Part shown: piece by piece, positions 2,882-47,942 of the stretch
Position numbering within the stretch: position 1 is the stretch's first letter
Layout of the letters: every line of letters starts with the position of its first letter
NCBI RefSeq assembly: GCF_000300335.1
Contig: NZ_AMRM01000005.1
Location: forward strand, 62,001 to 126,000
Origin: Nitratireductor pacificus pht-3B
GTDB taxonomy: Bacteria > Pseudomonadota > Alphaproteobacteria > Rhizobiales > Rhizobiaceae
Direction of reading: 5' to 3'
Length of the DNA stretch: 64,000 nt
Position numbers and translations under genes: made by a program
Notes under the pieces: model-generated
What the model was told of the DNA's origin: nothing
Seen by the model: only the letters and a program-made list of their open reading frames with translations
Databases searched by the model: none

Positions 2882-4646
2882 CCGTCCACTCTTCGTCGAT
2901 CACCGGTGCCTTGGTCCGGTTCGCAATTTCCTTTGTCGTGCCCGCGCCTACCGGCAATGAAACGGTTACCCGCGTCCCCTCGCCGGGCGCACTGTCTATC
3001 ATCACGCCGCCGCCCTGCAAGCCGACGAGGCCGCGCACCAGGGCGAGGCCGAGGCCGGTTCCCTCGACATGGCGTGTCGCTTCGCTGCGCACCTGCATGA
3101 ACGGCTCGCCGATGCGCTGCAGGTCGTCGGCCGCGATGCCGACGCCGTTGTCAGCCACACTGAAGTCGATGCGGTCGCCTGTCCGCTCCGCCGATATGAC
3201 GATCTCGCCGTTCTCGGGCGTGAACTTGACCGCGTTCGACAGGAGGTTGATCAGCACCTGCTGTACCGCGCGGCGATCGCAATGGACGACGCCAACGTCA
3301 TCCGCGATGGAAAGCTTGACCGCGATCGGGCGCTCCGTCGTCTGCGGGATCGTCAGCGCCAAGCTCGCCTCGACGACGTCGGCGAAGGAAAAGGCTTCGG
3401 GATGCAGCACATAGGTGCCCGATTCAACCTTCGACACCTCGAGCGTCGCGTTCACGACCGAAAGGAGGTGCGCGCCCGCCTCGTGGATCAGGCGCACATA
3501 TTCGCGCTGTCGCTCGTCGGCGAACCGGCCGAAGATCTCCATCTGGAGCGTGTCGGAGAAGCCCAGAATGGCGTTCAGCGGCGTGCGCAGTTCATGGCTC
3601 ACCGCGGCCAGCACGCGCCGGCTTTCCGCCCTGGTCGCGCGCTCACGCTCGCGCATGTACGCGATCTCATCCTCCAACTGGGCCTTGTCGCCCTCGTCGC
3701 GGATGACGGCCAGCGCCTCGCCGGGTTCTGCGCCGGAGACGAACTCGACGCCGAAGCGCCTGTAGCCCGATACGCGCGCATCCCCCTGCTCGGCGGGCAT
3801 GCGCAGACGAATGCTCAACTGGCGAGACCGGGCGCCCGAACCGATGTCCGACAGGGCGCACAGATAGGCGACCCGGTCGGCGACATGAACGCGCTCGAAG
3901 AAGCCCGAACCAAGCAGGATGTCGCTACGCACCTGCAGTAGATCGCCGGCCTGCCGGGATGCGCTGCTGACCTCGCCCGCCCTGTTCATCCGCAGGATCA
4001 ATGCGTTCATCCGGTCGGCCAGTATGGCGTCGTCGTCGGCCGGCGTCTCCCGGCCGCTCTCCGGCCGGAGGCCAGGCAGGCGCGCAAGCAGCGTCGCGAG
4101 ATAGACGACCGGCACGAACCAGTGCGCGGCGGATGGCGGCACTGCTATTCCGCCCTGAGCCAGTGCGCCCGTCAGCGCGCCGCCGAGGGCTGCCGCAGCC
4201 AGCGATGCACCACCCCCCAGGAGCAGCGCACGGCGTGTGCCTGCCACCCAGAACGCCTCCGCCGCCAGGGCGAAAGCCACGATCGCCATGGGCGAGGAGA
4301 GACCGCCGGCGGCCGCGATCAGGCCCGCAAGGGAGAGCGTACCCAGCGCCAGAGCGGCGATTTCGGCGGCGCCGCGTCGCGCGGTCGCCAGGATCGCCGT
4401 TGCAAGCATCCAGCAAAGACCGAAGGCCGCGCAGCCGAGCGCCATGGCCTGCGCCATATCCAGAACGTCGGAAAGGAGTTGCACCGAGGCGGCGGCGAAG
4501 AGGAAAGGCGCGCCGAACAGCACGGCGACCATGCGCGATTGGCGCCGGCGCTCACCGGCCTCGTCCACCGATGGGTGGATGAGGCGGCCGCAGGCCGCCG
4601 CAACAGCAGAGGACCACTCCAGATATAGAGATGCTCGTGCACTCAA
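2856..4646 (-). CDS. membrane sensor histidine kinase, DivJ-like
   Basis: 596 residues from a TTG start. Hydrophobic residues from about 40 to 205 form several membrane helices. A PAS-like region (about 225-335, MNALILRMNRAGEV...) follows, then HisKA with the phospho-acceptor His351 in SHELRTPLNAILGFSD, and a HATPase_c domain (N-box VLINLLSNAVKF, G1 DNGVGI, G2 GTGLGLAL). This multi-TM plus PAS plus HisKA layout matches DivJ-type kinases that phosphorylate DivK and control CtrA and cell polarity in alphaproteobacteria. No cognate response regulator is adjacent, which also fits DivJ. It heads an operon with a peptidoglycan-binding protein. The DivJ name is inferred; PdhS or PleC relatives are alternatives. 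Confidence 0.8.
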   Translation of the reverse strand: MSARASLYLEWSSAVAAACGRLIHPSVDEAGERRRQSRMVAVLFGAPFLFAAASVQLLSDVLDMAQAMALGCAAFGLCWMLATAILATARRGAAEIAALALGTLSLAGLIAAAGGLSSPMAIVAFALAAEAFWVAGTRRALLLGGGASLAAAALGGALTGALAQGGIAVPPSAAHWFVPVVYLATLLARLPGLRPESGRETPADDDAILADRMNALILRMNRAGEVSSASRQAGDLLQVRSDILLGSGFFERVHVADRVAYLCALSDIGSGARSRQLSIRLRMPAEQGDARVSGYRRFGVEFVSGAEPGEALAVIRDEGDKAQLEDEIAYMRERERATRAESRRVLAAVSHELRTPLNAILGFSDTLQMEIFGRFADERQREYVRLIHEAGAHLLSVVNATLEVSKVESGTYVLHPEAFSFADVVEASLALTIPQTTERPIAVKLSIADDVGVVHCDRRAVQQVLINLLSNAVKFTPENGEIVISAERTGDRIDFSVADNGVGIAADDLQRIGEPFMQVRSEATRHVEGTGLGLALVRGLVGLQGGGVMIDSAPGEGTRVTVSLPVGAGTTKEIANRTKAPVIDEEWTDEEYRKTA

Positions 4647-5091
4647 CTCGACGCGCTCTCGCTTTGTCCGTTTGACGTGTTCTTGTTCTGAAAGAACCTC
4701 GCACCCAGCGTTTAAGGAAACGATAAACGACGGTGCCGGCGGCGCTTCAGCCCGGCCGAAATCAGCGGTTCCGATGCAGAAATCCTGTCATGGTTAACAG
4801 CCCGTCACCGGATTCGCACCCTGCCCCGGCCCCTCGTTTTCCATGTCCGCGGCACGTCCCGGCCTGCAGATCCCAATCCGATCAACGCCTTAGGTGGTAA
4901 AATATTGGTCAACGCGTCTGCATGCCTTTGATCGGCACTTGTTTCAAAGGCCGGCGTTTGCGGTTTCTTCAAAAAAGAACCTCAAATTTGAACAAAAATC
5001 TCAACAGCCCTTTCGTGCGCCGATGGCATTGTCTTCCCGGGACGCTCGAAAGGGCATGGCCTGCGGGCCTTGAAACGGGAACAGCGACATC
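4647..5091. other. intergenic region between divergent genes
   Basis: About 445 bp between the leftward kinase operon and the rightward DUF5330 gene, so promoters for both should lie here. It is relatively AT-rich near 4895-5010. A CtrA-like TTAA-N7-ATAA lies at 4712-4726. ORFs crossing it have no recognisable product and no good start, and I treat them as chance. Confidence 0.5.
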
Positions 5092-5403
5092 ATGGGTTTT
5101 CTCATTCGATCCGCCTTCTGGCTCTCACTGGTTCTGCTGTTCCTGCCGATCGGCGGCGGGGACGAGGCGGAAACCGGGCAGGTCGGGGCGCTCCAGGCGA
5201 TCAGCGCGGCGCGTGACGCTGTCAGCGACATGGCCGGCATCTGCGAGCGCAGGCCCGATGTCTGCGCCACCGGGAAGGCCGCTCTTCAGACGATCGGCGT
5301 GCGCGCCCGCGAGAGTGCCCGCATCGCCTACGAGATGATCGAGGAAGAAACGCCCGCCGGCGAGCAGCCGCTCACCACCGGCAGCATTCCTCCGGCGCAA
5401 TAG
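5092..5403 (+). CDS. DUF5330 family small exported or membrane protein
   Basis: 103 residues starting MGFLIRSAFWLSLVLLFLPIGG, an N-terminal hydrophobic signal or anchor. The body matches the Rhizobiales DUF5330 family, with the pattern GALQAISAARDAVSDMAGICERRPDVC in which two cysteines (Cys54 and Cys60 approximately) are typical and may form a disulfide. The tail is Pro/Thr-rich. The product is probably periplasmic or inner-membrane anchored, with unknown function. It is followed 79 bp later by the sufE-like gene in the same direction. Confidence 0.8.
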   Translation: MGFLIRSAFWLSLVLLFLPIGGGDEAETGQVGALQAISAARDAVSDMAGICERRPDVCATGKAALQTIGVRARESARIAYEMIEEETPAGEQPLTTGSIPPAQ

Positions 5404-5482
5404 CCCTTCAACCGGCCGGAAGATGTCCGGATGCGGCCCGTTTTTCCGTGACGGGTGGCGGGACAAGGACTATATCCGGGGC

Positions 5483-5911
5483 ATGAGCACGACACTCGAC
5501 TCCATCTTCGACGATTTCGCCTTCCTGGACGACTGGGAGGAGCGCTATCGCTACATCATTGAGCTGGGCAACGCCCTGCCGCCCTATCCGGAGACGGCGC
5601 GCGACGAGGCCCACCGCGTACGGGGCTGCGTCAGCCAGGTCTGGCTGCACACGCAGCATGGCGAAGGCAGCGACCCGGTCCTCCAGTTCAAGGGCGATTC
5701 CGACGCGCATATCGTGCGTGGGCTCGTTGCCATCATGTTGCTCGTCTTCTCGGGAAAGAAGGCCAGCGCAATCCTTGAGATCGATGCGGAAAGCGTGCTG
5801 CGCCGGCTCGGCCTCGACGAGCATCTGACGCCGCAGCGGGCCAACGGCCTGCGCGCCATGGTCAAGCGGATACAGGACGAGGCGAAGTCGGTCACCGCAA
5901 CGGCGGGCTGA
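5483..5911 (+). CDS. sufE: SufE family cysteine desulfuration protein
   Basis: 142 residues from the ATG at 5483; a longer upstream frame (5423) lacks family similarity. The protein has the SufE fold signature: WEERYRYIIELG near the start, then the catalytic cysteine in VRGCVSQVWL, where SufE accepts persulfide sulfur from the SufS desulfurase for Fe-S cluster assembly. The remainder (GDSDAHIVRGLVAIMLLVFSGK) is typical. No sufS or sufBCD is in view, and a stand-alone sufE is common in Rhizobiales. Length is normal. Confidence 0.92.
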   Translation: MSTTLDSIFDDFAFLDDWEERYRYIIELGNALPPYPETARDEAHRVRGCVSQVWLHTQHGEGSDPVLQFKGDSDAHIVRGLVAIMLLVFSGKKASAILEIDAESVLRRLGLDEHLTPQRANGLRAMVKRIQDEAKSVTATAG

Positions 5912-5950
5912 GCATGAGCCGTCCACCGCTTCGATGAACGCTGAACGGAC

Positions 5951-6781
5951 CTAGGAAATTCTGGGACGATAGTCCTCCGCTCCCCAATGCAGGATCGGCC
6001 GCTTTCCGGTCCCGCTGCTCCCGGCCCGCGGATCATAGTGGCGCGCCAGCGCGCCGAGCGCCGTCTTCAGGACGACCTTCGCCGAACGCACCGGCCATCC
6101 CCGTTCGATTTCGGTCTGCTCAAAACCCTTCAGGAAGCAGCAGATGTCGACGAGCACGCCCGCCAGCTCGGGCCCGACAGCGGTCAGAGCCTGGTCCACC
6201 CTCTGCCGGGCCGAGAGCGCCGCGTCCGTCAGTTCGGTGCCGCCGCCCGGCCCGCTGCCGCGCCTGCCCGCCGATATGGCCGCGATCCAGTTCGCGCTCA
6301 ACCGGGGCATCACCTGCCCCCGCGTATAGTCCGCCCGCAGCCGCTCGCCCGCATCGAACTCGGCCGCCGTCAGAAACGGCGCGCCGTTGCGCGTGCGCCT
6401 CCTGGCGAGCTGTCCGAGCGGCGATTCGGCAAGATTGGCCGCCACATGCTGCCGGCAACGCTCCGCCATGATGACGCGATGCTCGATCTGCCAGTGCTGC
6501 GCCCGGAACGGTTCGGCCGCCGCCTCATCACGCCTTCCGCGGGCCTCTCCGACGTCGCTCAGCGCTACCCGCCCGTCCTCATCGCGCACCAAGATCCCTT
6601 CGCGGGCGAGCCTATCCAGCACGCTCATGTGCAATGCGATGGTCGCGCCGTCGCCATTGCTCAGCAGCCTGTGGTCCTTCTTGGCAGCGATGCGGCTCTC
6701 GGCCGGACCGCCTCGCAGAAAACGGATGGCGCGGAGGAGCTGGCGCTGCATATCGGCATTGATCTTGTCCTGCCTGAGCAC
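5951..6781 (-). CDS. DUF6456 domain protein
   Basis: 276 residues, read from a GTG at 6781 that has a GGAGG site ten bases upstream and begins three bases after the stop of the preceding HTH gene. The C-terminal half (SPLGQLARRR...AAEFDAGERLRADYTRGQVMPRLSANW...ALSARQRVDQALTAVGPELAGVLVDICCFLKGFEQTEIERGWPVRSAKVVLK...) is the DUF6456 domain of Rhizobiales. The N-terminal third looks like a helical DNA-binding-like region (LDRLAREGILVRD). The coupled HTH gene suggests a joint regulatory role, but no function is known. The same frame runs open upstream through the HTH gene; that extension is a shadow. Confidence 0.8.
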   Translation of the reverse strand: MLRQDKINADMQRQLLRAIRFLRGGPAESRIAAKKDHRLLSNGDGATIALHMSVLDRLAREGILVRDEDGRVALSDVGEARGRRDEAAAEPFRAQHWQIEHRVIMAERCRQHVAANLAESPLGQLARRRTRNGAPFLTAAEFDAGERLRADYTRGQVMPRLSANWIAAISAGRRGSGPGGGTELTDAALSARQRVDQALTAVGPELAGVLVDICCFLKGFEQTEIERGWPVRSAKVVLKTALGALARHYDPRAGSSGTGKRPILHWGAEDYRPRIS

Positions 6782-6783
6782 GG

Positions 6784-7218
6784 TCAGCGCACCTCCGTGT
6801 GCCGGAACGCCACGGTGACGACCCGCTCCGTCATGCTGACGACGCTGTCGAACTCCTCGTCGTCGCGCATGTCCTCGATGAGATGGCAGGCATACTGAAC
6901 CGTCGTCCTGTCGCGCCCGAAACCGCGGCCGACTTCCGCCATGTTCAGTCCGAGGGTCACATGGGCGGCATACATGCCGATCTGGCGCACCCTCGTCACG
7001 CTCGTCGACGACCGCCCTGTTCCGCGCAACTCCCTTCCGCTGACATTGAACAACGCAGCAATGATATCCAGAACGCATTCGCAGACCTCGGTGACCCGCT
7101 CGTCTGCTATGGGGCTGAGGCGGCGCTCCAGCGATAGCGCCGGCCCGTCCGCCATGCGGACCGCCCCCGTCAGCTTGATGTCTGCTTGCTTCGTCGCATT
7201 TGACGGCACTGAATTCAT
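6784..7218 (-). CDS. helix-turn-helix protein with DnaA domain IV-like DNA-binding fold
   Basis: 144 residues. The central to C-terminal part (IIAALFNVSGRELRG...VRQIGMYAAHVTLGLNMAEVGRGFGRDRTTVQYACHLIED) matches domain IV of the replication initiator DnaA, including the signature G-RD-x-TTV-xx-A that contacts DnaA boxes. It has no AAA+ ATPase part, so it cannot be DnaA itself. Stand-alone DnaA_C proteins occur in Rhizobiales as putative regulators. It is translationally coupled to the downstream DUF6456 gene. The start at ATG 7218 has GGAAGGG almost abutting it, so the ATG at 7155 is an alternative start. Confidence 0.82.
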   Translation of the reverse strand: MNSVPSNATKQADIKLTGAVRMADGPALSLERRLSPIADERVTEVCECVLDIIAALFNVSGRELRGTGRSSTSVTRVRQIGMYAAHVTLGLNMAEVGRGFGRDRTTVQYACHLIEDMRDDEEFDSVVSMTERVVTVAFRHTEVR

Positions 7219-7424
7219 CCCTTCCCGAAAAGAGGAATAAATTCTTATATCCTACGCGGCCGCCTGCGGGAACAAATTGTGAACACATAATTGTTGATCG
7301 CGACATCAACACATTGAACGAAAAGAATAAAAACCGGCCGAGATAATTTTCTTCAGCACTGTTTATCCCCGCCCCTTCGAAGCCCCTCATAGTCGGACGA
7401 GATCAGAAACCGAGGTCCGGCATA

Positions 7425-7766
7425 ATGGTGGTAAAAAGCGAGATCGACGCGTTCCGTAGGGCAAAGGAGGCGCGTGGCGTCGACGCGCGGCAGACGGCGG
7501 CACTGGCGCTCGTTTGCGGAATAGATCTGCCTTCGGCCCTGCGATCCTCGGGAACCGACCGGATCGCATTGCAGCAGCGACTGAAACGCATGATCGAGCG
7601 CGAGCGGCTCAAGGGCGCGCGAGGCCACTGGAGCTACGATCTCAATCGTCACATCGCGCTCGGCCAGGCACTGCAGCGATTGTCTCCGCCGTCGGACATC
7701 GTTGTCGGCGATCGCGCACCGGTCCGGCGACGCTCCAGACACCGTCCTCCCCGGCACGGGTCGTGA
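7425..7766 (+). CDS. hypothetical protein (113 aa)
   Basis: Basic, Arg-rich protein from ATG 7425 with a GAGG site about ten bases before it. It has helical character in the first 85 residues (IDAFRRAKEARGVDARQTAALALVCGIDLPSAL, then LQQRLKRMIERERLKGARGHWSYDLNRHIALGQALQRL), which could be a small nucleic-acid-binding protein. I do not recognise the family. It is divergent from the HTH/DUF6456 pair and convergent with mucR, with only a terminator between. Confidence 0.6.
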   Translation: MVVKSEIDAFRRAKEARGVDARQTAALALVCGIDLPSALRSSGTDRIALQQRLKRMIERERLKGARGHWSYDLNRHIALGQALQRLSPPSDIVVGDRAPVRRRSRHRPPRHGS

Positions 7767-7777
7767 CCGGCACCCGC

Positions 7778-7806
7778 AAAAAAAGACGGCGCCCGGAGGC
7801 GCCGTC
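7778..7806 (-). terminator. rho-independent terminator of mucR
   Basis: Perfect 9-bp stem (GACGGCGCC 7785-7793 with GGCGCCGTC 7798-7806) and a 4-base CGGA loop. On the minus strand it is followed by seven T residues (7784-7778). It lies 40 bases downstream of the mucR stop. Confidence 0.88.
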
Positions 7807-7845
7807 AATCAGTCAAAGCTACGCAAGATACACTCGGGAGAACGC

Positions 7846-8265
7846 CTATTTTCCCTTTGGCTTGCGGCCGAGACCCATCTGCTTGGCGAGCTGCGAACGC
7901 GCGATCGCGTAGCTCGGCGCAACCATGGGATAATTCGGATCGAGACCCCACTTCTCGCGATACTGCTCGGGCGTCATGCCGTAGTGGGTCATCAGATGAC
8001 GCTTCAGCGACTTGAACTTCTTACCGTCTTCCAGACAAATGATGTAATCGTCGTGCACAGACCGCTTGGGATTGACGGCCGGCTTCTGCTTCTCGGCTGG
8101 CGCAGGCTCCGACGAGCCACTCACACGACCGAGCGCCGCATGCACATCCGCGATCAGATTGGAAAGTTCAGAAGCAGGAACTGGATTATTGCTAACATAG
8201 GCAGCCACGACCTCTGCCGTCAGCTCAATAAGCATATTGTCGTTCTTGATCAGTTCTTCGTTCAT
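7846..8265 (-). CDS. mucR: MucR/Ros family zinc-finger transcriptional regulator
   Basis: 139 residues, normal for the family. The N-terminal half ([34 protein letters not shown]) is the oligomerisation region. The C-terminal DNA-binding domain runs from about 70 to 130 and contains C77-L-E-D80, H90 and H94 ([32 protein letters not shown]). The second zinc ligand is Asp, not Cys as in Ros, the arrangement known for Brucella MucR and some Mesorhizobium homologues. The family binds AT-rich DNA, controls exopolysaccharide, motility and virulence genes, and usually represses itself. It has its own terminator and a long AT-rich upstream region consistent with autoregulation. Confidence 0.95.
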
Positions 8266-39093: not shown

Positions 39094-40170
39094 ATGAGCA
39101 TGATTGCCGTGGCGTCCCATTTCCTGACAGGTCTGGGTGTTGCCGCGATTGCGTCCTTGTTTTACGGGCTGTTCCTTCAGCTTCCGACCTCGGCGGCATA
39201 CAGGAAGGTGCTGCTCGCCGCGCTTTTCGCCGCGGCCAGCGTTATCCCCATGTTCCTGTCCGCCACGCCGGCGGTCGCACTCTCCTTCGGCGTCGGAAAC
39301 GTGTTCGTCGTGCTGGCCATGGCATTTGGCGGATGGTGGGCGGCGATCTGCGCCATTCTCGCCGCGGCCGCCGGCCGGTTCTGGCTCGGCGATGCGAGCG
39401 GGCTCCTCGGCGTCGTTCTGTGCGCGATCATCGGCTTCGTTTTTGCCCGGGTGGCGAAAGGCCGGCCGATATCGCTCGGCATGCTGGCCGCCGCCGGCCT
39501 GCTCTCCGCGGTCGGATTGATGGCGATCCTTGTCCTGCCCGTCGATTCCGTTCTGGCGGCAGCCCCATCCGTCACGCTTCCCGCCACTCTTGCCGTCGCC
39601 GCAAGCGTCGTGATCGTCGGACAGATGCTCGGGCTGCAGCGGAGTCGTTTCCAGTCCCGCGACGGCCGTTCCGCGGAGGCGGCCACCGATCCGTTGACCG
39701 GCCTTCTGAACCGGCGTGTCTTCGACAAGCTGGGGCCGGAACTGGCTGAAGCCATGAACTGGGCCGGCCAGCCCTACTCGATGGCGGTCATCGATATCGA
39801 TGCTTTCGACAATCTTCTCGACAATCACGGGCGTACGGTCGGAGAACTCGCGCTGCGCCATGTCGCGGCGGTCATCCAGGCCAATGTCAGGCAGACGGAC
39901 ATGGTGGCGAGTTTCGGCGGCCAGGCCATTGCGCTGGTGCTTCCCGCCTATGATGCCGAGCGGGCGCTCGGCCTCGCAGAGCGCGTGCAACGGGCGGTCG
40001 CCGAGGCGCCCTTCCTGATCGACGGCGTCACCCTTCCGCTCACCATCAGCGTTGGTCTCCACACGCCGCTGCCGCAGAAGGAAGGGTTCTGGACGGCTCT
40101 CGGGCAGGCCGATACCGCTTTGAACGACGCGCAGGCAGCGGGCCGCAACCGCCTGAAGGTCGCCGTCTGA
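39094..40170 (+). CDS. membrane protein with degenerate GGDEF domain (likely c-di-GMP receptor)
   Basis: 358 residues. Five to six hydrophobic helices (about 5-180) include a segment like the LytS-type 5TMR module (GGWWAAICAILAAAAGRFWLGDASGLLGVVLCAIIGF). The GGDEF-like domain (about 195-355) starts ATDPLTGLLNRRVFD, but the catalytic motif reads G275-G-Q-A-I279, with both acidic residues gone and the NDxxGH region also altered (DNHGRTVG). The I-site R266-Q-T-D269 is preserved. I infer loss of cyclase activity and retention of c-di-GMP binding. RBS GAGGAG at good spacing supports the start. Confidence 0.88.
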   Translation: MSMIAVASHFLTGLGVAAIASLFYGLFLQLPTSAAYRKVLLAALFAAASVIPMFLSATPAVALSFGVGNVFVVLAMAFGGWWAAICAILAAAAGRFWLGDASGLLGVVLCAIIGFVFARVAKGRPISLGMLAAAGLLSAVGLMAILVLPVDSVLAAAPSVTLPATLAVAASVVIVGQMLGLQRSRFQSRDGRSAEAATDPLTGLLNRRVFDKLGPELAEAMNWAGQPYSMAVIDIDAFDNLLDNHGRTVGELALRHVAAVIQANVRQTDMVASFGGQAIALVLPAYDAERALGLAERVQRAVAEAPFLIDGVTLPLTISVGLHTPLPQKEGFWTALGQADTALNDAQAAGRNRLKVAV

Positions 40171-40232
40171 AGCCCTGCCCCGGTGGATTTCTTCCGCAGC
40201 ACGGTTCTTCCCGGTCTCCAGTTTCTCGAACG

Positions 40233-40253
40233 TGCCGGGATCCCGGCATTTTT
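40233..40253 (+). terminator. terminator after the degenerate GGDEF gene
   Basis: TGCCGG-GATC-CCGGCA hairpin followed by TTTTT, 63 bases past the stop. Confidence 0.65.
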
Positions 40254-40337
40254 GTCTCCGCGAACCGCAAACTGAAATCTGCGGCGGTCTTCGGTTTCCG
40301 TCAGCGAAGCCGATCGGGTGCGCAAGACGATTGATTT

Positions 40338-40352
40338 GTTCTCTTTTTGTTC
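40338..40352 (+). promoter_or_regulatory. alphaproteobacterial LexA (SOS) box
   Basis: GTTC-TCTTTTT-GTTC, a perfect match to the direct repeat GTTC-N7-GTTC recognised by LexA in alphaproteobacteria. It ends 12 bases before the ATG of the HhH-GPD gene that precedes imuA-imuB-dnaE2. No second box of this type is seen before imuA itself. Confidence 0.85.
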
Positions 40353-40364
40353 TTATCATGAGGG

Positions 40365-41351
40365 ATGCAATACACCCTGCCCCTTGCCTCGTTCAATCGG
40401 CTTGAGCGCCTTCACCAGCGCCTGCTGGCGGCGTTCGGTCCGCCGCCGGCCTGTCACCGCCTCGATCCCGTGAGCCAGATGATCCTCGCGATCCTCAGCG
40501 CCAGAACGCACAGCGAGATCGCCCTGCGCGTCTTTGGCCTGCTGGTTCAGCGTTTCGATGTGGTGCAGCACAAGGGGCGATGGATCGCGCTGGCCACGGC
40601 ATCGTTCCATGAGATCGACCCGCTGCTCGACGGTATCAACCACGCGGAAAGGAAGGCCGTTGCCCTGCCCAGGGCCTTGCAGGAGATTACCGCTCTGCGC
40701 GGCGAGCTGACGCTCGATTTCCTGAAATCCTGGGCGGTCGGACCGGCCCTCGTCTGGCTGGAACGGATTTACGGCGTCGGCCCCAAGACCAGCACCGCCA
40801 CGCTCAATCTCAGCACGCTCAGGAAACGTGTCCTCGTCGTCGACACGGCGCATTGGCGCGCCGCCCGCTGCCTCGGCCTGTTTTCCGGCCAAACCGGGCT
40901 GGAGCGCGCGGTGCGGTCGCTCAACCGTCAGGCGCCGGACCGCTGGGAGGCTGCCGACATGGAGGATCATCATGTCCTGATGCAGCAGCTCGGAAGAGAG
41001 TTCTGCGCCAAAGGTCTTTCCGCCGCCTGCCCGTTTCGGGCCGTCTGTGCGGAGGCCGGAGCCGCCGCTTCGCCGGAGCGGCGGGAGCGCCGCCTCGAAG
41101 CATGGCTGGCCGCCCCACAGGATATGAGCGTCCTGTCCAGGCACGGGAAGACGGGAGCCGAAACCGCAGAACCGGAAAAATTCTCCGGCATCCACGAACA
41201 TGACGCGGCAGCCGCGCGCCCGGCATCAGATCGCCATGCGTCCTTTCGGACGCACAAAGGACGATCTGAAACATTGATAGAGCATCGGAACAGCCGAAAA
41301 CCGGATTCCATTTTTCGGTCCGATGCTCCAGCGCCTGCCCTTCCGACATGA
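40365..41351 (+). CDS. HhH-GPD endonuclease III-like protein with incomplete Fe-S ligand set
   Basis: 328 residues. Residues about 30-215 form an HhH-GPD domain: the helix-hairpin-helix with Lys141 in YGVGPKTSTATLNL and Asp160 in VVDTAHWRAAR correspond to the catalytic Lys and Asp of endonuclease III, a DNA glycosylase/AP lyase for oxidised pyrimidines. The C-terminal cluster loop has only three cysteines (C214, C222, C228; C-x7-C-x5-C), not C-x6-C-x2-C-x5-C, so a [4Fe-4S] cluster is doubtful. The last 85 residues have no similarity and run through an intergenic-type repeat. It follows a SOS box and leads into imuA after 21 bp. Substrate unknown. Confidence 0.8.
   Translation: MQYTLPLASFNRLERLHQRLLAAFGPPPACHRLDPVSQMILAILSARTHSEIALRVFGLLVQRFDVVQHKGRWIALATASFHEIDPLLDGINHAERKAVALPRALQEITALRGELTLDFLKSWAVGPALVWLERIYGVGPKTSTATLNLSTLRKRVLVVDTAHWRAARCLGLFSGQTGLERAVRSLNRQAPDRWEAADMEDHHVLMQQLGREFCAKGLSAACPFRAVCAEAGAAASPERRERRLEAWLAAPQDMSVLSRHGKTGAETAEPEKFSGIHEHDAAAARPASDRHASFRTHKGRSETLIEHRNSRKPDSIFRSDAPAPALPT
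41280..41328. repeat. palindromic repeat inside the 3' end of the HhH-GPD ORF
   Basis: Arms GAGCATCGGA/TCCGATGCTC pair perfectly (10 bp), and inner CCGAAAA/TTTTCGG pairs also match. The layout resembles short palindromic elements common between genes in Rhizobiales. Here it is read as codons about 306-322. Confidence 0.8.
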
Positions 41352-41372
41352 TGTGCGTTCTGGATCTGCATC

Positions 41373-42221
41373 ATGAAACACGCCTTTGACATCGAAGCCC
41401 TGCGACGACGCATCGCCACCCAGGAGCGCCTGACGCCGGTCAGGCGGCCGGCCGTTCCCCTCGGCCCGGCGGCGCTCGACGCCGCTCTCCCCGCGCATGG
41501 CCTTGCAACGGGTGCCCTGCATGAGCTGGTGCCGGCCGCGCATGGCGATTTCGCCGCCGGCATCGGCTTCGGCTTTTGCCTGCTGGCGCGCATTGCCCGC
41601 AGCCGGGCCGGCCAGGTCCTCTGGGCGGTGCCGGCACATCTGGAACATCGTGAAGGCGGGCTTTATCCGCCGGGGCTGGCCGCACTCGGCTTCGATCCCG
41701 GCCGGCTGATCCAGGTCACGGCGCGCAAGCCGATCGACATCCTATGGGCGCTCGAGGAAGCGCTCGGGCATGCGCCCCTGGCCGCGGTGGTCGGCGTCCT
41801 TCCGGAGAAGGCCCGGGACTATGATTTTCCCGCCAGCCGGCGGCTTGCCCTGCGCGCGGCGGCACAGGGCGTCACCGCCCTCATCCTCCGCGAACGGGAG
41901 GTTCCGGGCATGTCCACGGCCGCCGAAACGCGCTGGTCAATCGCCTCCCTGCCCAGCCGGCTTGAGGGAATGACGTCCCGGGCTGGAGCGGGGTTCGGGC
42001 CAGGAGCGCCGCGCTGGCAGATCAAGCTCACCAAATGCAGGAAAGGAACATCCGGCGGCAGGTCCGATGGCTGGTCTGCTGGCTGGCACGGTGGCCGGCC
42101 CGATAACTGGGATGTCGAATGGGATCATGAAACGCTTTCTTTCCGTCTTCCTCCCCCGCTGGCCGATCGAGCGCCGGCATGGGCGTCCGGCATCGACAGT
42201 TCCTGGGCAGAAGCCTCGTGA
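41373..42221 (+). CDS. imuA: ImuA, accessory protein of the translesion mutasome
   Basis: 282 residues. The N-terminus IEALRRRIATQERL and the ALPAHGLATGALHELVPAAHGDFAAGIGFGFCLLARIAR segment are typical of alphaproteobacterial ImuA, a RecA/SulA-related protein whose P-loop is degenerate. It acts with ImuB and DnaE2 in SOS-induced mutagenesis; interaction with RecA is reported for the family. It overlaps imuB by 95 bp, with imuB starting inside its Gly/Trp-rich tail. No promoter of its own is evident. Confidence 0.88.
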   Translation: MKHAFDIEALRRRIATQERLTPVRRPAVPLGPAALDAALPAHGLATGALHELVPAAHGDFAAGIGFGFCLLARIARSRAGQVLWAVPAHLEHREGGLYPPGLAALGFDPGRLIQVTARKPIDILWALEEALGHAPLAAVVGVLPEKARDYDFPASRRLALRAAAQGVTALILREREVPGMSTAAETRWSIASLPSRLEGMTSRAGAGFGPGAPRWQIKLTKCRKGTSGGRSDGWSAGWHGGRPDNWDVEWDHETLSFRLPPPLADRAPAWASGIDSSWAEAS

Positions 42222-43698
42222 CGGGGAAGCCCTGGTGCTCGTCACCACCTCGGACAGCGGTCAACGCATCACCGCCCTCAACCGGGCTGCCGAGCAGCTC
42301 GGCTTCCTGCCCGGCATGACGCTGGCCGATGCGCGCGCTATCCACCCGGCCCTGCGCGTGGACCGCGCGGACCTCGCAGGCGATCATCGGGCGCTCATGC
42401 GGCTGGCCTTTTGGTGCCAGTGTTTCTCTCCCTTCACCCGGGCCGACGCGCCCGATGGCGTGAGCCTCGACATCACCGGCTGCGCCCATCTGTTCGGCGG
42501 TGAGGCGGGCCTTCTCGACATGCTGTCCCGAAAACTCGGCGGTTTCGGCCTGACGGCGAAGCTGGCCATTGCGCCGACCGTCGGCGCGGCCTGGGGACTG
42601 GCGCGGCATGCCGCCAGCCCCCGCCTCGTCGTCCCGCGCCAAGACCTGCGTTCCGCCCTCGCGCCGCTGCCCGTCGCCGCCCTTTGCCTGGATGCGGCAA
42701 GCCTGCCCGCCCTCGAAAAGCTCGGCCTGAAGCGCATCGACGACCTTCTCGACAAGCCGCGCGCGCCCCTTGTCGCCCGCTTCGGCCCGCTGGTCCTGCG
42801 CCGGCTGGACGAGGCGCTTGGCCATGAGGAGGCGAGTTTCGGTCCGCTCAGCCCGCCGGTTCTTCATGCTGTCACATGCCGTTTTGCCGAGCCCATCATC
42901 ACCCGCGAGGCGATCGAGATCGCCATCGGTCGGCTGACCGCCGACCTGGCGGCCGATCTCGAACGCGCCGCCAGGGGCGTGCGGCGCGTGGAGCTGCGCC
43001 TTTTCCGCGTCGATGGCTGGTTCGAAGCGCTGCCGCTTGCCACCAGCACGGCCACACGCGACGCCCCCCACCTCGCCCGTCTGCTTGGCGAGCGGCTCGA
43101 CCGGATCGAGGACCGTGCCGGCTTCGGCTTCGAGGCGGCGAGCCTGAGCGCCCTTCAGGTGGAAAACCTGACCGGCCGGCAGGAGGATCTGGGCGACGAG
43201 GCACTGGTCGGCGCGCGCGGCGACATTGCGCCTCTCCTCGACCGCCTGGTCAACCGCTTCGGCGCACGCCATGTGATGCGGGCAGAGCCTCATGCGAGCT
43301 ACGTTCCCGAGCGGGCCGCCCGCGCCGTCTCGGTCCTGAAACCCGCGAAATCCCATGACTGGTGCGCCCATGCGCGCATCGTCCAGGACGGCGCGCCCTT
43401 TGCCCGGCCGCTGTTCCTGTTGGCCGTTCCCGAGCCGGTCACCACGCTGGCGGGCGTGCCGGACGGTCCGCCGACGCGCTTCGAATGGCGGCGCGTGGCG
43501 CATCGCGTGGCCTCTGCAGAGGGGCCGGAGCGCATCGCGCCCGAATGGTGGCTGGCGCCCGTCGGGGCAAGCCGCAGGACACGCGACTATTACCGCGTCG
43601 AGGATGAGGCCGGCCGCCGCTTCTGGCTGTTCCGTGAAGGGCTTTACGAGCGCGGCGAAGACACGCCGCGCTGGTTCATCCACGGGGTGTTCGCATGA
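42127..43698 (+). CDS. imuB: ImuB, catalytically inactive Y-family polymerase
   Basis: 523 residues from the ATG at 42127 (MKRFLSVFLPRWPIER, the usual ImuB start); an upstream ATG at 42067 adds a meaningless tail of imuA code. The fold is that of DinB-like polymerases, but the catalytic acids are missing: the first motif reads SVFLPRWPI instead of D-x-D, and the second SLDITGCAHLFGGE instead of SIDEAYLD. ImuB bridges the beta clamp, ImuA and DnaE2. The stop overlaps the dnaE2 start (ATGA). Confidence 0.93.
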   Translation: MKRFLSVFLPRWPIERRHGRPASTVPGQKPRDGEALVLVTTSDSGQRITALNRAAEQLGFLPGMTLADARAIHPALRVDRADLAGDHRALMRLAFWCQCFSPFTRADAPDGVSLDITGCAHLFGGEAGLLDMLSRKLGGFGLTAKLAIAPTVGAAWGLARHAASPRLVVPRQDLRSALAPLPVAALCLDAASLPALEKLGLKRIDDLLDKPRAPLVARFGPLVLRRLDEALGHEEASFGPLSPPVLHAVTCRFAEPIITREAIEIAIGRLTADLAADLERAARGVRRVELRLFRVDGWFEALPLATSTATRDAPHLARLLGERLDRIEDRAGFGFEAASLSALQVENLTGRQEDLGDEALVGARGDIAPLLDRLVNRFGARHVMRAEPHASYVPERAARAVSVLKPAKSHDWCAHARIVQDGAPFARPLFLLAVPEPVTTLAGVPDGPPTRFEWRRVAHRVASAEGPERIAPEWWLAPVGASRRTRDYYRVEDEAGRRFWLFREGLYERGEDTPRWFIHGVFA

Positions 43699-46600
43699 GA
43701 AGCGCCCCGCCCTTCGCCGAACTCGGCGTCACCAGCAATTTCAGCTTCCTGCGCGGCGGATCGCATCCACGCGAACTGGTCGCCGAAGCGGCGCGGCTCG
43801 GCCATGCCGCGATCGGGATTGCCGACCGCAACACGCTGGCCGGCGTGGTGCGGGCGCATGTGGAAGCCAGGGAACGGGGCATGCGCCTCGTCGTCGGCAC
43901 CCGGCTGGTGTTGATGGACCGGTTCGAGGCGCTCTGTTTCCCGACCGACCGCGAAGCCTATGGCCGCCTCGCCCGCTTGCTCACCATCGGCAACCGCCGC
44001 GCCGCGAAGGGCGAATGCCATCTGCACTTCGAAGACCTCTCCCTGCTTGGCGACCGCCAGCGCCTTATCGCCATGCCACCCTATGATTTCGGCGCCGGTT
44101 TCGAGGAGGGCCTGCGCCGGCTGGCCACGGCATTCCCCGGCGCCGTCTTCCTCGCGCTCACCCCTTACCGACGCGCCAATGATGTTCGGCGCCAGCAGCG
44201 GCTTCATGCGCTGTCGCTCGCCTGCGCCACGCCGCTCGTCGCCACCAACGACGTGCTCTATCACACGCCGGCGCGGCGCCCCTTGCAGGATCTCGTCACC
44301 TGCATCCGCGAGCATTGCACCATCGATGAGGCCGGTTTCCGCCTGCAGCGCAACGCCGAGCGGCATCTGAAGGCGCCGGAGGAGATGGCCCGGCTGCTCG
44401 CCGGCCACGAGGACGCGATCGCCCGGTCGGCGGCCCTGGCCGCCGAATGCCGTTTCTCGCTCGACGAACTGTCCTACGAATATCCCGAGGAATCGGCCGG
44501 TGAGAGCGCCACCCCGCAGGAAGAGCTCGTCCGCCTCACCTGGCTCGGCGCGCAGGAGCGCTTCCCCGAGGGTCTGAGCGACAGGACGCGCGCGATGATC
44601 CTCCATGAGCTTCAGCTCATCGGCCATCTGAACTACGCCGCCTATTTCCTGACCGTGCATGACATCGTCCGCTTCGCCCGCGCGCAGGAGCCGCCGATCC
44701 TGTGCCAGGGACGCGGATCGGCGGCCAATTCCGTCGTCTGTTTCTGCCTCGGCGTCACCTCGGTCAATCCGACCGAGGTCGACCTCCTGTTCGAGCGCTT
44801 CATCTCCGCCGAGCGCGGCGAGCCGCCGGACATCGACGTGGATTTCGAGCATGAGCGGCGCGAGGAGGTGATGCAGTATATCTACGGCAAATATGGCCGC
44901 CACCGCGCCGGCCTCGCCGCCACCGTCATCTCCTACCGCACCCGCAGCGCCGTGCGCGAGGCGGGCAAGGCGATGGGCCTGTCGCCCGATGTCGTCGCCG
45001 CCATGACCGGCCTCGTCTGGGGCCATTCGGAGAAGACGCCGGCTGGCGACCGCATCCGCGAGGCGGGTCTCGACCCCGGCGACCCGCGCCTGCGCCAGAC
45101 CCTCGTGCTCGTCAGCCAGCTGATCGGTTTCCCCCGCCACCTGTCGCAGCATGTGGGCGGCTTCGTCATGACGCGCGGTCCCCTCGACGAGATGGTCCCC
45201 ATCGCCAACGCGGCCATGGAGGATCGCACCATCGTGGAATGGGACAAGGACGATCTCGACGCGCTGAAAATCCTCAAAGTCGATGTGCTCGCGCTCGGCA
45301 TGCTCACCTGCCTGCGCAAGAGTTTTGATCTCCTGCGCGACCATTACGGCGAAGAGCGCACGCTCGCCACCGTGCCGCGTAACGACGAGCCGACCTATGC
45401 GATGATCCAGAGGGCCGATACGATCGGCGTCTTCCAGATCGAGAGCCGGGCGCAGATGTCGATGCTGCCGCGCCTCAGGCCGAAGAATTTCTACGACCTC
45501 GTCATCGAGATCGCCATCGTCCGTCCGGGTCCCATCCAGGGCGACATGGTGCATCCCTATCTGCGCCGGCGCAACAAGGAGGAGGATGTCGATTACCCGT
45601 CGGAGGAACTCAGGGCCGTCCTGCAAAAGACCCTCGGCGTCCCGCTGTTCCAGGAGCAGGCCATGAAGATCGCCATCGTCGGCGCCGGCTTCTCGCCCGA
45701 CAAGGCCGACCGGCTGCGCCGCGCCATGGCCACCTTCCGCCGCAATGGCGACATCGACCAGTTCCGCGACGATTTCATCGGCGGAATGCTCGCCAAGGGT
45801 TACGCGCCCGACTTCGCCGAGCGCTGCTTCAACCAGATGAAGGGTTTTAGCGATTACGGCTTTCCCGAAAGCCATTCGGCCAGCTTCGCGCTGCTTGCCT
45901 ATGCCTCCTCCTGGCTCAAATGCCACTATCCGGATGTTTTCGCCTGCGCGCTCCTGAACTCGCAGCCGATGGGCTTCTATTCCGCCTCCTCCATCGTCCG
46001 CGACTTCCGCGACCATGGCGGCGAGACGCGGCCGGTCGACGTCAATCACAGCGGCTGGGACCACGCGCTCGAGCCGGCCTCGAAGCCCGGCGCCATCCGC
46101 CATGCGCTGCGGCTCGGCCTGCGCCAGGTGGACGGCATCCGCGAGGCGGCGGCACTGAAGATCGTGGATGCGCGCGGCGCGGGCTTCGCCAATGTGCGCG
46201 ACCTCTATTTCCGCTCGGGCATCGACATGTTCTCCCTGCGCCGGCTGGCGGAGAGCGACGCCTTCCGCTCCATCGGCCTCGACCGACGCGCCGCCCTCTG
46301 GGAGGTGCGCGGCCTGAGCGGCCATCAGGGCGTACGCGCGGCCGCCGAGGAACTGCCTCTCTTCGCCAGCGCCCGCAGCGCAGCCGCCACGCCCCTCCAG
46401 GCCGAGGAGAGCGTCGCCCTTCCCGCGCTCCTGCCCGGCGAGCATGTGGTCGAGGACTACGGCACGCTCGGCCTGTCGCTGAAGGCGCATCCCGTTTCCT
46501 TTCTGCGCCCGCAACTCAGGAAACGCCGCGTCCTGGAAACCCGCATGCTCGCCGACACGCCGGCGGGCCGCTTCGTGCGCGTCTCAGGCCTCGTCCTGGT

Positions 46601-46937
46601 GCGCCAGCGGCCCGGCACGGCAAGCGGCGTCATTTTCATGACGCTGGAAGATGAGACCGGTATCGCCAACGCCATTATCTGGCCGCGTGTCTTCGAGCGC
46701 TTTCGCCGTGTCGTCTTCGGCGCGCGCATGGTGATGGTCGAGGGCATCCTGCAGAAGGAGAAGGAGGTCATCCACGTGGTTGCGCGCAAGCTGACCGACA
46801 CGACGCCGGAACTGATGGCCGCCATGGCCGATCCGGCCGCGCAGGCCGGAGCGGAGGAAAAACACCCGACCGCGCAGAATCTCTGGCGTCACCCGCGCGA
46901 CGTGCGTGTGCTCCCGAAGGGACGCAACTTCCATTGA
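43695..46937 (+). CDS. dnaE2: error-prone DNA polymerase DnaE2 (ImuC)
   Basis: 1080 residues, typical for DnaE2, shorter than the replicative DnaE. The N-terminal PHP domain begins FAELGVTSNFSFLRGGSHPREL. The palm has RGSAANSVVCFCLGVTSVNP and the acidic triad region PPDIDVDFEHERREEVMQYI. The fingers and helix-hairpin-helix segment read KGFSDYGFPESHSASFALLAYASSWLK, and a C-terminal OB fold follows (VRVSGLVLVRQRPGTASGVIFMTLEDETG). It performs translesion synthesis after DNA damage with ImuA and ImuB. A long antisense ORF is a codon-bias shadow. Confidence 0.97.
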   Translation: MRSAPPFAELGVTSNFSFLRGGSHPRELVAEAARLGHAAIGIADRNTLAGVVRAHVEARERGMRLVVGTRLVLMDRFEALCFPTDREAYGRLARLLTIGNRRAAKGECHLHFEDLSLLGDRQRLIAMPPYDFGAGFEEGLRRLATAFPGAVFLALTPYRRANDVRRQQRLHALSLACATPLVATNDVLYHTPARRPLQDLVTCIREHCTIDEAGFRLQRNAERHLKAPEEMARLLAGHEDAIARSAALAAECRFSLDELSYEYPEESAGESATPQEELVRLTWLGAQERFPEGLSDRTRAMILHELQLIGHLNYAAYFLTVHDIVRFARAQEPPILCQGRGSAANSVVCFCLGVTSVNPTEVDLLFERFISAERGEPPDIDVDFEHERREEVMQYIYGKYGRHRAGLAATVISYRTRSAVREAGKAMGLSPDVVAAMTGLVWGHSEKTPAGDRIREAGLDPGDPRLRQTLVLVSQLIGFPRHLSQHVGGFVMTRGPLDEMVPIANAAMEDRTIVEWDKDDLDALKILKVDVLALGMLTCLRKSFDLLRDHYGEERTLATVPRNDEPTYAMIQRADTIGVFQIESRAQMSMLPRLRPKNFYDLVIEIAIVRPGPIQGDMVHPYLRRRNKEEDVDYPSEELRAVLQKTLGVPLFQEQAMKIAIVGAGFSPDKADRLRRAMATFRRNGDIDQFRDDFIGGMLAKGYAPDFAERCFNQMKGFSDYGFPESHSASFALLAYASSWLKCHYPDVFACALLNSQPMGFYSASSIVRDFRDHGGETRPVDVNHSGWDHALEPASKPGAIRHALRLGLRQVDGIREAAALKIVDARGAGFANVRDLYFRSGIDMFSLRRLAESDAFRSIGLDRRAALWEVRGLSGHQGVRAAAEELPLFASARSAAATPLQAEESVALPALLPGEHVVEDYGTLGLSLKAHPVSFLRPQLRKRRVLETRMLADTPAGRFVRVSGLVLVRQRPGTASGVIFMTLEDETGIANAIIWPRVFERFRRVVFGARMVMVEGILQKEKEVIHVVARKLTDTTPELMAAMADPAAQAGAEEKHPTAQNLWRHPRDVRVLPKGRNFH

Positions 46938-47009
46938 GCCACCTCTTCGCCGTTGCCAACCACGCCGCGTCCCGCTACTGCCTAAGCCCAGGAAAACGGG
47001 AGGCGTTTC

Positions 47010-47942
47010 ATGATCCTTTGCTGCGGCGAAGCCCTGATCGACATGCTGCCGCGACAATCGGCTTCCGGAGAGCCGCTGTTCGCCCCGCATGCGGGCGGCT
47101 CCGTGTTCAACAGCGCCATCGCCATCGGCCGGCTCGGCGTGGATTGCGGCTTCTTCTCAGGCCTGTCGGACGATCTCTTCGGCACGATGCTGCGCGGCAG
47201 GCTGGAGGAAAGCCGGGTAGACCTCTCGCTGGCGCGCTTCTCCAGCCGCCCCACGACGCTAGCCTTCGTCACGCTTACTGATGGCCATGCCGAATACAGT
47301 TTCTACGATGAGAACACCGCCGGCCGCATGATCGCGCCGGCCGATCTGCCGGCCCTCGGGCCGGATGTGCGGGCGCTCCTCTTCGGCGGCATCAGCCTGG
47401 TCTCGGAGCCGTGCGGGTCCGCCTATGAGGCACTGATGGCGCGTGAAAGTGCTGCGCGCGTGACCATGCTCGACCCGAACATTCGCCCGGCCTTCATCAC
47501 CGATGCAGCGGCGCACCGGGCGCGCATGCAGCGCGTGATCGAAATGGCCGACATCGTAAAAATATCCGCCGACGATCTCGCCTGGTTCGGCGAGGAAGGC
47601 GATGTGGACGCCATCGCCCGACGCTGGCTTGCGGGCGGCCCCAGCCTCGTCATCCTGACCGATGGCGGCAAGGGCGCGACCGCCTACGCGAACGGTAAAA
47701 AAATGTTCGTCGCTGCCAGCCCGGTCACGGTTGTCGACACGGTGGGCGCGGGCGACACGTTCAACGGCGCGCTTCTGGCGGCGCTCGACATGGCCGGGCT
47801 CCTGGCGAAGGACAAGATCGCGGCGCTCGACGAGGATCAGATTTCAGCGGCTCTCGCCCTTGCCGCAGGCGCCGCGGCGGTCACCGTCTCGCGGGCCGGC
47901 GCCAATCCGCCTTGGCGCGCGGAGCTGGGAGCCTGGTGCTAG
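47010..47942 (+). CDS. frk: PfkB-family fructokinase
   Basis: 310 residues of the ribokinase/PfkB family. The N-terminal glycine motif (GGSVFNSAIAIGRLG) and the C-terminal signature DTVGAGDTFNGALLAAL, with the catalytic Asp and anion hole, are intact. The start ILCCGEALIDMLP is common in fructokinases of Rhizobiales. It phosphorylates a sugar, probably fructose, with ATP. A nearby sugar transporter is absent, so the substrate rests on family resemblance only. The stop overlaps the convergent cysQ stop by four bases. Confidence 0.88.
   Translation: MILCCGEALIDMLPRQSASGEPLFAPHAGGSVFNSAIAIGRLGVDCGFFSGLSDDLFGTMLRGRLEESRVDLSLARFSSRPTTLAFVTLTDGHAEYSFYDENTAGRMIAPADLPALGPDVRALLFGGISLVSEPCGSAYEALMARESAARVTMLDPNIRPAFITDAAAHRARMQRVIEMADIVKISADDLAWFGEEGDVDAIARRWLAGGPSLVILTDGGKGATAYANGKKMFVAASPVTVVDTVGAGDTFNGALLAALDMAGLLAKDKIAALDEDQISAALALAAGAAAVTVSRAGANPPWRAELGAWC

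Follow-up and report, generated by a model that had tools for sequence, protein, structure and literature searches.

A glycosylase gene at the head of a putative SOS mutasome operon

In the 64,000-nt stretch of Nitratireductor pacificus pht-3B analysed here (contig NZ_AMRM01000005.1; hereafter the window), a gene encoding an HhH-GPD DNA glycosylase (HhH in the following) lies directly ahead of imuA, imuB and dnaE2. We read this arrangement as a LexA-repressed four-gene operon that would unite an EndoIII-1-related glycosylase with the ImuA-ImuB-DnaE2 mutasome, excision followed by copying included, and judging from the sequence we consider this reading as a whole fairly probable. Its firmest part is the architecture together with the shared LexA control, which is very likely correct. 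It is also probable that the glycosylase and the mutasome deal with common lesions within a single response. The specific hand-off, in which excision would be followed by bypass, is a tentative proposal. The elements of the putative operon are the following.

40331–40359, + strand: sigma-70-type promoter (-35 TTGATT at 40331–40336, 17-bp spacer, -10 TATCAT at 40354–40359)
40338–40352, + strand: LexA/SOS box GTTC-N7-GTTC, GTTCTCTTTTTGTTC, within the promoter spacer
40365–41351, + strand: EndoIII-1-like HhH-GPD DNA glycosylase gene; core of residues 1–235, then a poorly conserved tail
41373–42221, + strand: imuA, named from a remote profile score, its position and conservation in the genus
42127–43698, + strand: imuB (Y-family-like), with Pfam IMS and IMS_C above cut-off, and with its start codon and end
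43695–46937, + strand: dnaE2 (imuC), matching the NCBIfam error-prone DNA polymerase profile

All four genes are on the same strand at spacings of +21, -95 and -4 bp, i.e., imuA and imuB overlap by 95 bp and imuB and dnaE2 by 4 bp; the 21-bp gap between HhH and imuA given in a first-pass annotation of the window is borne out by the coordinates (41351/41373). The components of ImuABC were recognized by a DnaE2-type polymerase score of 1387.9 bits against NF004225 (cut-off 939) and by ImuB scores of 31.8 bits against PF00817 (cut-off 23.2) and 20.9 bits against PF11799 (cut-off 20.7). ImuA reached 54.0 bits with its profile NF033429 (cut-off 150), a remote score, so that its naming drew on position.

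The first-pass annotation had also reported a perfect GTTC-N7-GTTC ahead of the endonuclease III-like gene, and it is indeed present, overlapping the promoter as in the LexA regulon of Alphaproteobacteria. A count of the motif by itself would be poor proof of a genuine SOS box: the window has five perfect matches vs 1.68 expected, a number reached in 3 of 100 shuffles, and the genome has 125 vs 43 for the reversed control pattern. The box is judged to be more than a chance match because of its position inside the promoter spacer and its conservation in the genus. TTGATT/TATCAT is the sole promoter-like site on either strand between 40200 and 42300 (shuffles gave a mean of 0.1), and in an alignment anchored on the box the string ATTGATTTGTTC....TTTGTTC.TAT..TG is invariant in all ten Nitratireductor genomes sampled. 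Mean column identity among these ten sequences was 98% immediately ahead of the box and 94% inside it, vs 58% further upstream. Thus, footprint conservation and position, not the motif count, rule out a chance match.

Between 40353 and 47000 there is no second perfect SOS box, in agreement with the earlier statement that none precedes imuA; the sole one-mismatch boxes there are inside imuA (41901) and imuB (43426). Nor was a promoter-like site found ahead of imuA in the scanned interval 40200–42300. With one box, one promoter and none before imuA, the sequence gives good support to the earlier proposal that HhH shares LexA control with the mutasome. With 5 bp between the end of the -10 box and the HhH ATG, the transcript probably lacks a leader. 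A lexA gene is present elsewhere in the genome, and its own box, of opposite sense, begins 65 bp before the presumed ATG.

Conservation within Nitratireductor

The closest named relatives of the window genome (4.47 Mb, 51 contigs) are Nitratireductor spp., and the glycosylase core has 84% in common with that of N. soli. Among the ten genus genomes, imuA and the promoter are kept in all ten and HhH in nine. HhH and imuA are contiguous in eight of them; in G009, HhH is split by contig ends, with the 3′ part on the same contig as imuA. The HhH-imuA junction, available from nine genomes, is a gap of 19–21 bp in six and, in the other three, an overlap of 4 bp (ATGA). Genome G004 (L028, 1129–1387) retains promoter, box, ATG, about 20 codons, the tail and the ATGA overlap, together a 76-codon frame from which the catalytic core is gone. 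This pattern fits what is expected if imuABC needs the promoter and the coupling, and it makes G004 a natural experiment in which the catalytic core was lost and the promoter kept. G004 also carries another imuA (L159), which is preceded at 92 bp by a box in reverse orientation.

Outside the genus, 21 of 40 related genomes sampled gave an imuA match, and each of the 20 loci fetched is preceded by a perfect box, the closest lying 35–601 bp before the imuA match. In 18 of the 20 this box reads GAAC-N7-GAAC. We therefore assign the box of Nitratireductor to the glycosylase gene.

Recurrence of the association in the order

The first-pass annotation had called for a survey of the neighbours of this HhH subfamily in Rhizobiales, and other lineages of the order turned out to place HhH ahead of imuA or behind dnaE2, which overturned the idea that the imu link is confined to Nitratireductor. 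In an order-level sample of 397 genomes (E ≤ 1e-35) there were 21 carriers including the window, and 12 of the 20 others have HhH beside imu genes. Eight of these 20 show the order box-HhH-imuA-imuB and belong to four families (f196, two; f213, four; f5, one; f2, one), with the box 26–28 bp before HhH and dnaE2 confirmed in the six loci fetched for it. A fifth family, f221, contributes four loci in which imuB, dnaE2 and then HhH follow one another on one strand, the HhH match starting 15–49 bp past the dnaE2 stop. No SOS box was found near HhH in these four loci, so HhH would depend there on the imu promoter. In L204 (G1086), HhH heads imuABC behind a perfect box and has an apparent frame break; in G1048 a box is present and the neighbourhood is free of imu genes.

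On a tree of 55 rows, the 16 imu-linked rows are scattered, at least three changes are needed, and a single clade was rejected in the approximately unbiased (AU) test (p-AU 0.0114), for a group that was defined post hoc from the neighbourhoods and in a tree with long branches. The HhH-first and HhH-last architectures, as read from the gene order, already argue for two events. These observations suggest that imuABC acquired a member of the same HhH family on more than one occasion. On the tree, f213 is the sister group of Nitratireductor (99/99); both have VDTA, with Ala in place of the His after the catalytic Asp, and all four iron-sulfur (Fe-S) cysteines are present in 4/4 f213 genomes; dnaE2 identity to the window is 69–70% in the two f213 loci fetched. 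Nitratireductor and f213 may therefore share one cassette, from which a cysteine would have been lost later in Nitratireductor. Because the adjacency of HhH and imu genes recurs in other lineages, a functional link is more likely than it appeared at first reading.

Identity of the glycosylase

The best sequence match of the window protein in the PDB was Deinococcus radiodurans EndoIII-1 (4UNF; E 3e-28, 27% identity), and Foldseek, run with a predicted model (predicted local distance difference test, pLDDT, 91.7), gave its best E value, 4.2e-10, for EndoIII-1 as well (8A5F). The template modelling (TM) score was higher for EndoIII-3 (0.81) than for EndoIII-1 (0.71). With 16.3 bits the protein stays below the Pfam HhH-GPD gathering score of 26.2 bits; two of three other Nitratireductor HhH proteins reach that cut-off (26.2 and 27.1) and one does not (12). 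Its relatives and the predicted fold, with the catalytic Lys and Asp in the model and the alignment, place it in the HhH-GPD superfamily. There was no match at E 0.001 to TIGR01083, the profile of canonical Nth, and one HhH relative scored 21.2 bits vs the cut-off of 211.7. With NF053634, the equivalog of EndoIII-1/DR2438, the window protein scored 53.6 bits vs a cut-off of 400, and three relatives without nearby imu genes scored 94–106 bits. Because the cut-offs of Nth, DR2438 and Pfam HhH-GPD were all failed, the window glycosylase is, by sequence comparison, best described as a diverged relative of Deinococcus EndoIII-1 and not as a member. An ordinary Nth was rejected as its identity; a scan of domain pieces located an nth-type, a mutY-type and a third, weakly AlkA-like HhH-GPD gene elsewhere in the genome.

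In a residue alignment of 62 sequences (seven from Nitratireductor and 55 others), the catalytic pair as assigned by alignment, K141 and D160, is invariant in 7/7 Nitratireductor proteins. R47, in the first DNA-intercalating loop, is equated with R61 of EndoIII-1 from the sequence match to that enzyme. EndoIII-1 is described as mostly monofunctional, as processing single-stranded DNA and as requiring Arg61 for full activity (PMC9268735, PMC10523315). Caulobacter CC2272, which is named a second nth in PMC1839093, was considered as a counterpart of HhH and set aside.

Selection on the glycosylase gene and other features of the region

The ratio of nonsynonymous to synonymous substitution rates (dN/dS) of the HhH core was 0.12–0.22 in all six pairs within the genus, vs 0.18–0.22 for imuB and 0.23–0.28 for imuA (three pairs each). 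Thus, the core is constrained at about the level of imuB and somewhat more strongly than imuA, and because it is under purifying selection the protein has some function. The tail is relaxed, with a far higher rate of evolution than the core (dN/dS 0.45–0.97, six pairs), which ruled out a conserved C-terminal docking motif. Two further features lie at and ahead of the gene.

41229–41328, + strand: interspersed palindromic repeat, in frame within the HhH tail; BLASTN copies at 7/7 own-genome loci compared
40232–40249, + strand: terminator-like hairpin and T run 3′ of the upstream gene; weak, with three such sites in the region vs 1.3 expected

The repeat is an insertion at HhH codons 289–322, from which N. 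soli is free, and it has 31 further protein-level matches elsewhere in the genome. The interval 41225–41380 has a strong RNA fold (z -5.2), and the palindromic repeat might affect imuA expression. The hairpin could insulate the putative operon from the upstream gene. No known RNA element was detected at E 0.1 in the 40–47 kb region (39900–47100 scanned).

Two other SOS boxes deserve mention. A perfect box with an AT-rich spacer (GTTCACAATTTGTTC, minus strand) lies at 7270–7284, inside an open frame of 479 amino acids at 5951–7390 on the minus strand. A T-rich box elsewhere in the same genome (G000:C5:201245-201259) stands upstream of a gene that by eye resembles a radical-SAM SplB-type protein and is, to judge from the sequence, a likely further LexA target.

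The HhH family under probable LexA control on its own

From GTDB contigs we collected 64 named loci of the HhH family, of which 62 have at least 150 bp of upstream DNA (seven Nitratireductor, 55 others). A perfect box in the same orientation stands near the start, counted from a conserved Met-Gln, in 46 of the 62 (7/7 Nitratireductor, 39/55 others), and none of the remaining 16 has a reverse-orientation box; control windows in the same loci matched in 7 of 2955 cases. The distance from box to Met-Gln is 27–28 bp in 35 of the 46 loci and mostly so with or without imu genes. No imu genes were found in the flanks of the named loci outside Nitratireductor, except for a tail-to-tail neighbour in L100. 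There (4001–8129, Rhodobacter sp. SGA-6-6), an SOS-box HhH gene and dnaE2 face each other tail to tail with overlapping ends. The search for phage carriage of the family returned no match, and the 12 plasmid records all have less than 60% identity.

In 16 of the 64 loci, from Sphingomonas-type genomes, ung is located behind the HhH family gene. The SOS-box HhH is followed by ung 28–52 bp later in L086, L087, L088, L090, L092, L094, L095, L097, L098, L099, L101, L106, L109, L111, L114 and L117, by its layout an apparent SOS-controlled operon of two glycosylases. A canonical nth stands directly behind the family gene in three of the 64 loci (L083, L084 and L089); L083 and L089 have no SOS box and L084 has too little upstream DNA.

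Proposed mechanism and alternative explanations

In the proposed sequence of events, DNA damage would lead to RecA-driven cleavage of LexA and, with control as the promoter sequence implies, to one transcript for the glycosylase and the mutasome. The glycosylase would then remove damaged bases from the blocked or gapped template, probably single-stranded, where DnaE2 works at stalled forks or gaps, and DnaE2 with ImuB would copy past the abasic site or fill the patch. A mainly monofunctional enzyme that tolerates single-stranded DNA, as reported for Deinococcus EndoIII-1, would suit this scheme, because a blocking base would become an abasic site on a single-stranded template that stays uncut. 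The crossing of the abasic site by DnaE2 after excision, proposed by analogy with D. radiodurans EndoIII-1, is the least certain step. A joint part in the creation or processing of abasic sites, as raised in the first-pass annotation, is likewise tentative. For the order, we put forward, a shade more tentatively than the hand-off itself, that in some Hyphomicrobiales (Rhizobiales) an SOS-controlled EndoIII-1-type glycosylase strips bases from single-stranded DNA without cutting it, that ImuB-DnaE2 crosses the site, and that the enzyme was recruited more than once.

Several observations weigh against a joint operation of glycosylase and mutasome. The link is not general, because flanking imu genes are absent, within fetched flanks of up to 1.5 kb, from all 21 non-Nitratireductor carriers of a family-level sample (394 genomes, E ≤ 1e-35; 28 carriers, seven of them Nitratireductor) and from all ten carriers besides the window in a class-level sample (385 genomes; carriers above 145 bits, next best 88.6; 11 carriers including the window). 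The box is at the start in 12 of those 21, and a thirteenth (L182) fits when counted back from a partial match; among the ten of the class-level sample it is present in four. Of two loci at contig ends, L162 has a box 28 bp before the match and L176 has none near. Within the order, seven f18 carriers lack both a box and neighbouring imu genes, and imuA was detected in one of the four f221 dnaE2-HhH loci and undetected in three. G004 manages without the HhH core, and the group given to the AU test was chosen post hoc on long branches. Moreover, to judge from its box, the family stands under an SOS control of its own in many genomes, so that co-regulation is no proof of a hand-off and a common promoter could be a convenience. 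Shared regulation might then be all there is, i.e., an independent SOS glycosylase whose LexA promoter happened to land ahead of imuABC, with no biochemical link to DnaE2. We regard this as somewhat unlikely: the same box in 39/55 named loci outside Nitratireductor with flanks free of imu genes except for the tail-to-tail L100, the ung (16/64) or canonical nth (3/64) behind the gene and the box-to-start distance of mostly 27–28 bp irrespective of imu genes agree with it, but HhH occurs at both ends of imu clusters in separate places of the tree, has no box of its own in f221, and is retained in 9/10 members of the genus.

The protein itself provides further points against joint excision and copying. 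LPGVG has become LYGVG in 7/7 Nitratireductor sequences, vs a hairpin Pro kept in 55/55 others, and VDTH has become VDTA in 7/7, vs a His after the catalytic Asp kept in 52/55. The second Fe-S cysteine is missing where two residues are deleted, so that the window protein and six named complete-core Nitratireductor loci read C-X7-C-X5-C in place of the [4Fe-4S] spacing C-X6-C-X2-C-X5-C taken from DrEndoIII2 (PMC9268735); the four-cysteine pattern is present in 55/57 other named loci, and the two exceptions are short frames. Of the Cys-to-Ser variants of DrEndoIII2, one of four proteins could be produced according to PMC9268735, which speaks against an easy tolerance of cysteine loss. With the long stem branch of the Nitratireductor HhH (1.11), these changes favour a non-catalytic accessory that binds abasic or single-stranded DNA for the mutasome and has little glycosylase activity. 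D. radiodurans EndoIII-3, which has no Thr-His pair, is reported to be inactive (PMC9268735); however, it stayed inactive when the pair was restored, so that the pair alone is not decisive, and the Cys199-to-Ser variant of DrEndoIII2 is described there as unstable yet active, although this concerns the first cysteine and not the second. The four f213 genomes with VDTA retain all four cysteines, K141 and D160 remain invariant, and core constraint is about that of imuB, and we consider an accessory of this kind improbable. It is more improbable by far that HhH is a removable passenger, a decaying gene whose box now serves imuABC alone, as might be read from the lost core of G004, the uptake of a repeat by the fast tail and the apparent frame break of G1086: the core dN/dS of 0.12–0.22 in 6/6 genus pairs argues otherwise. 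The LexA-repressed operon of a working glycosylase and the mutasome is the reading that we retain.

Relation to known systems and implications

The closest known system is imuABC of Caulobacter crescentus, likewise a single LexA-controlled cluster of imuA-imuB-dnaE2 with GTTC-N7-GTTC, which is reviewed as co-transcribed and needed for damage-induced mutagenesis (PMC9578287). Nitratireductor differs by an added glycosylase gene in front (elsewhere behind), which bears the only box of the cluster. EndoIII-1 (DR2438; 4UNF, 8A5F) is the best sequence and predicted-fold match and has the loop Arg and the catalytic Lys and Asp in common with the window protein, which differs in being 27% identical, in having one Fe-S cysteine fewer and in its SOS box and operon. 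Canonical Nth shares the HhH-GPD fold and catalytic Lys/Asp, but the window protein has no TIGR01083 match and the genome a separate nth-type gene. SRAP and ImuB-C neighbours (PMC3765255) and a DnaE variant fused to a uracil glycosylase domain (PMC3919608) are described as cases in which repair functions are recurrently tied to error-prone or C-family polymerases; the passages concerned name SRAP, ImuB-C, Ku/ligase, SplB and uracil glycosylases and no EndoIII-type HhH-GPD protein. Two surveys devoted to mutasome operons (PMC6511836, PMC12926913) use the words ‘glycosylase’ and ‘endonuclease III’ nowhere in their main texts.

An EndoIII-type family joined to imuABC was not found in the literature searched, a scope that left most subscription papers and all supplements outside. 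Already known are imuABC, its LexA control and the EndoIII-1 enzymes; within the literature searched, the union of such a family with imuABC, at the head or the tail of the cluster and in several lineages, appears to be new.

DNA glycosylases are usually regarded as agents of error-free repair and as rivals of translesion synthesis. That separate lineages have a glycosylase gene before or behind those of a mutagenic polymerase operon points to a single programme of which both may be parts. If this is true, base excision would be a step of mutagenic tolerance, and it would become testable which lesion the alphaproteobacterial mutasome actually meets.

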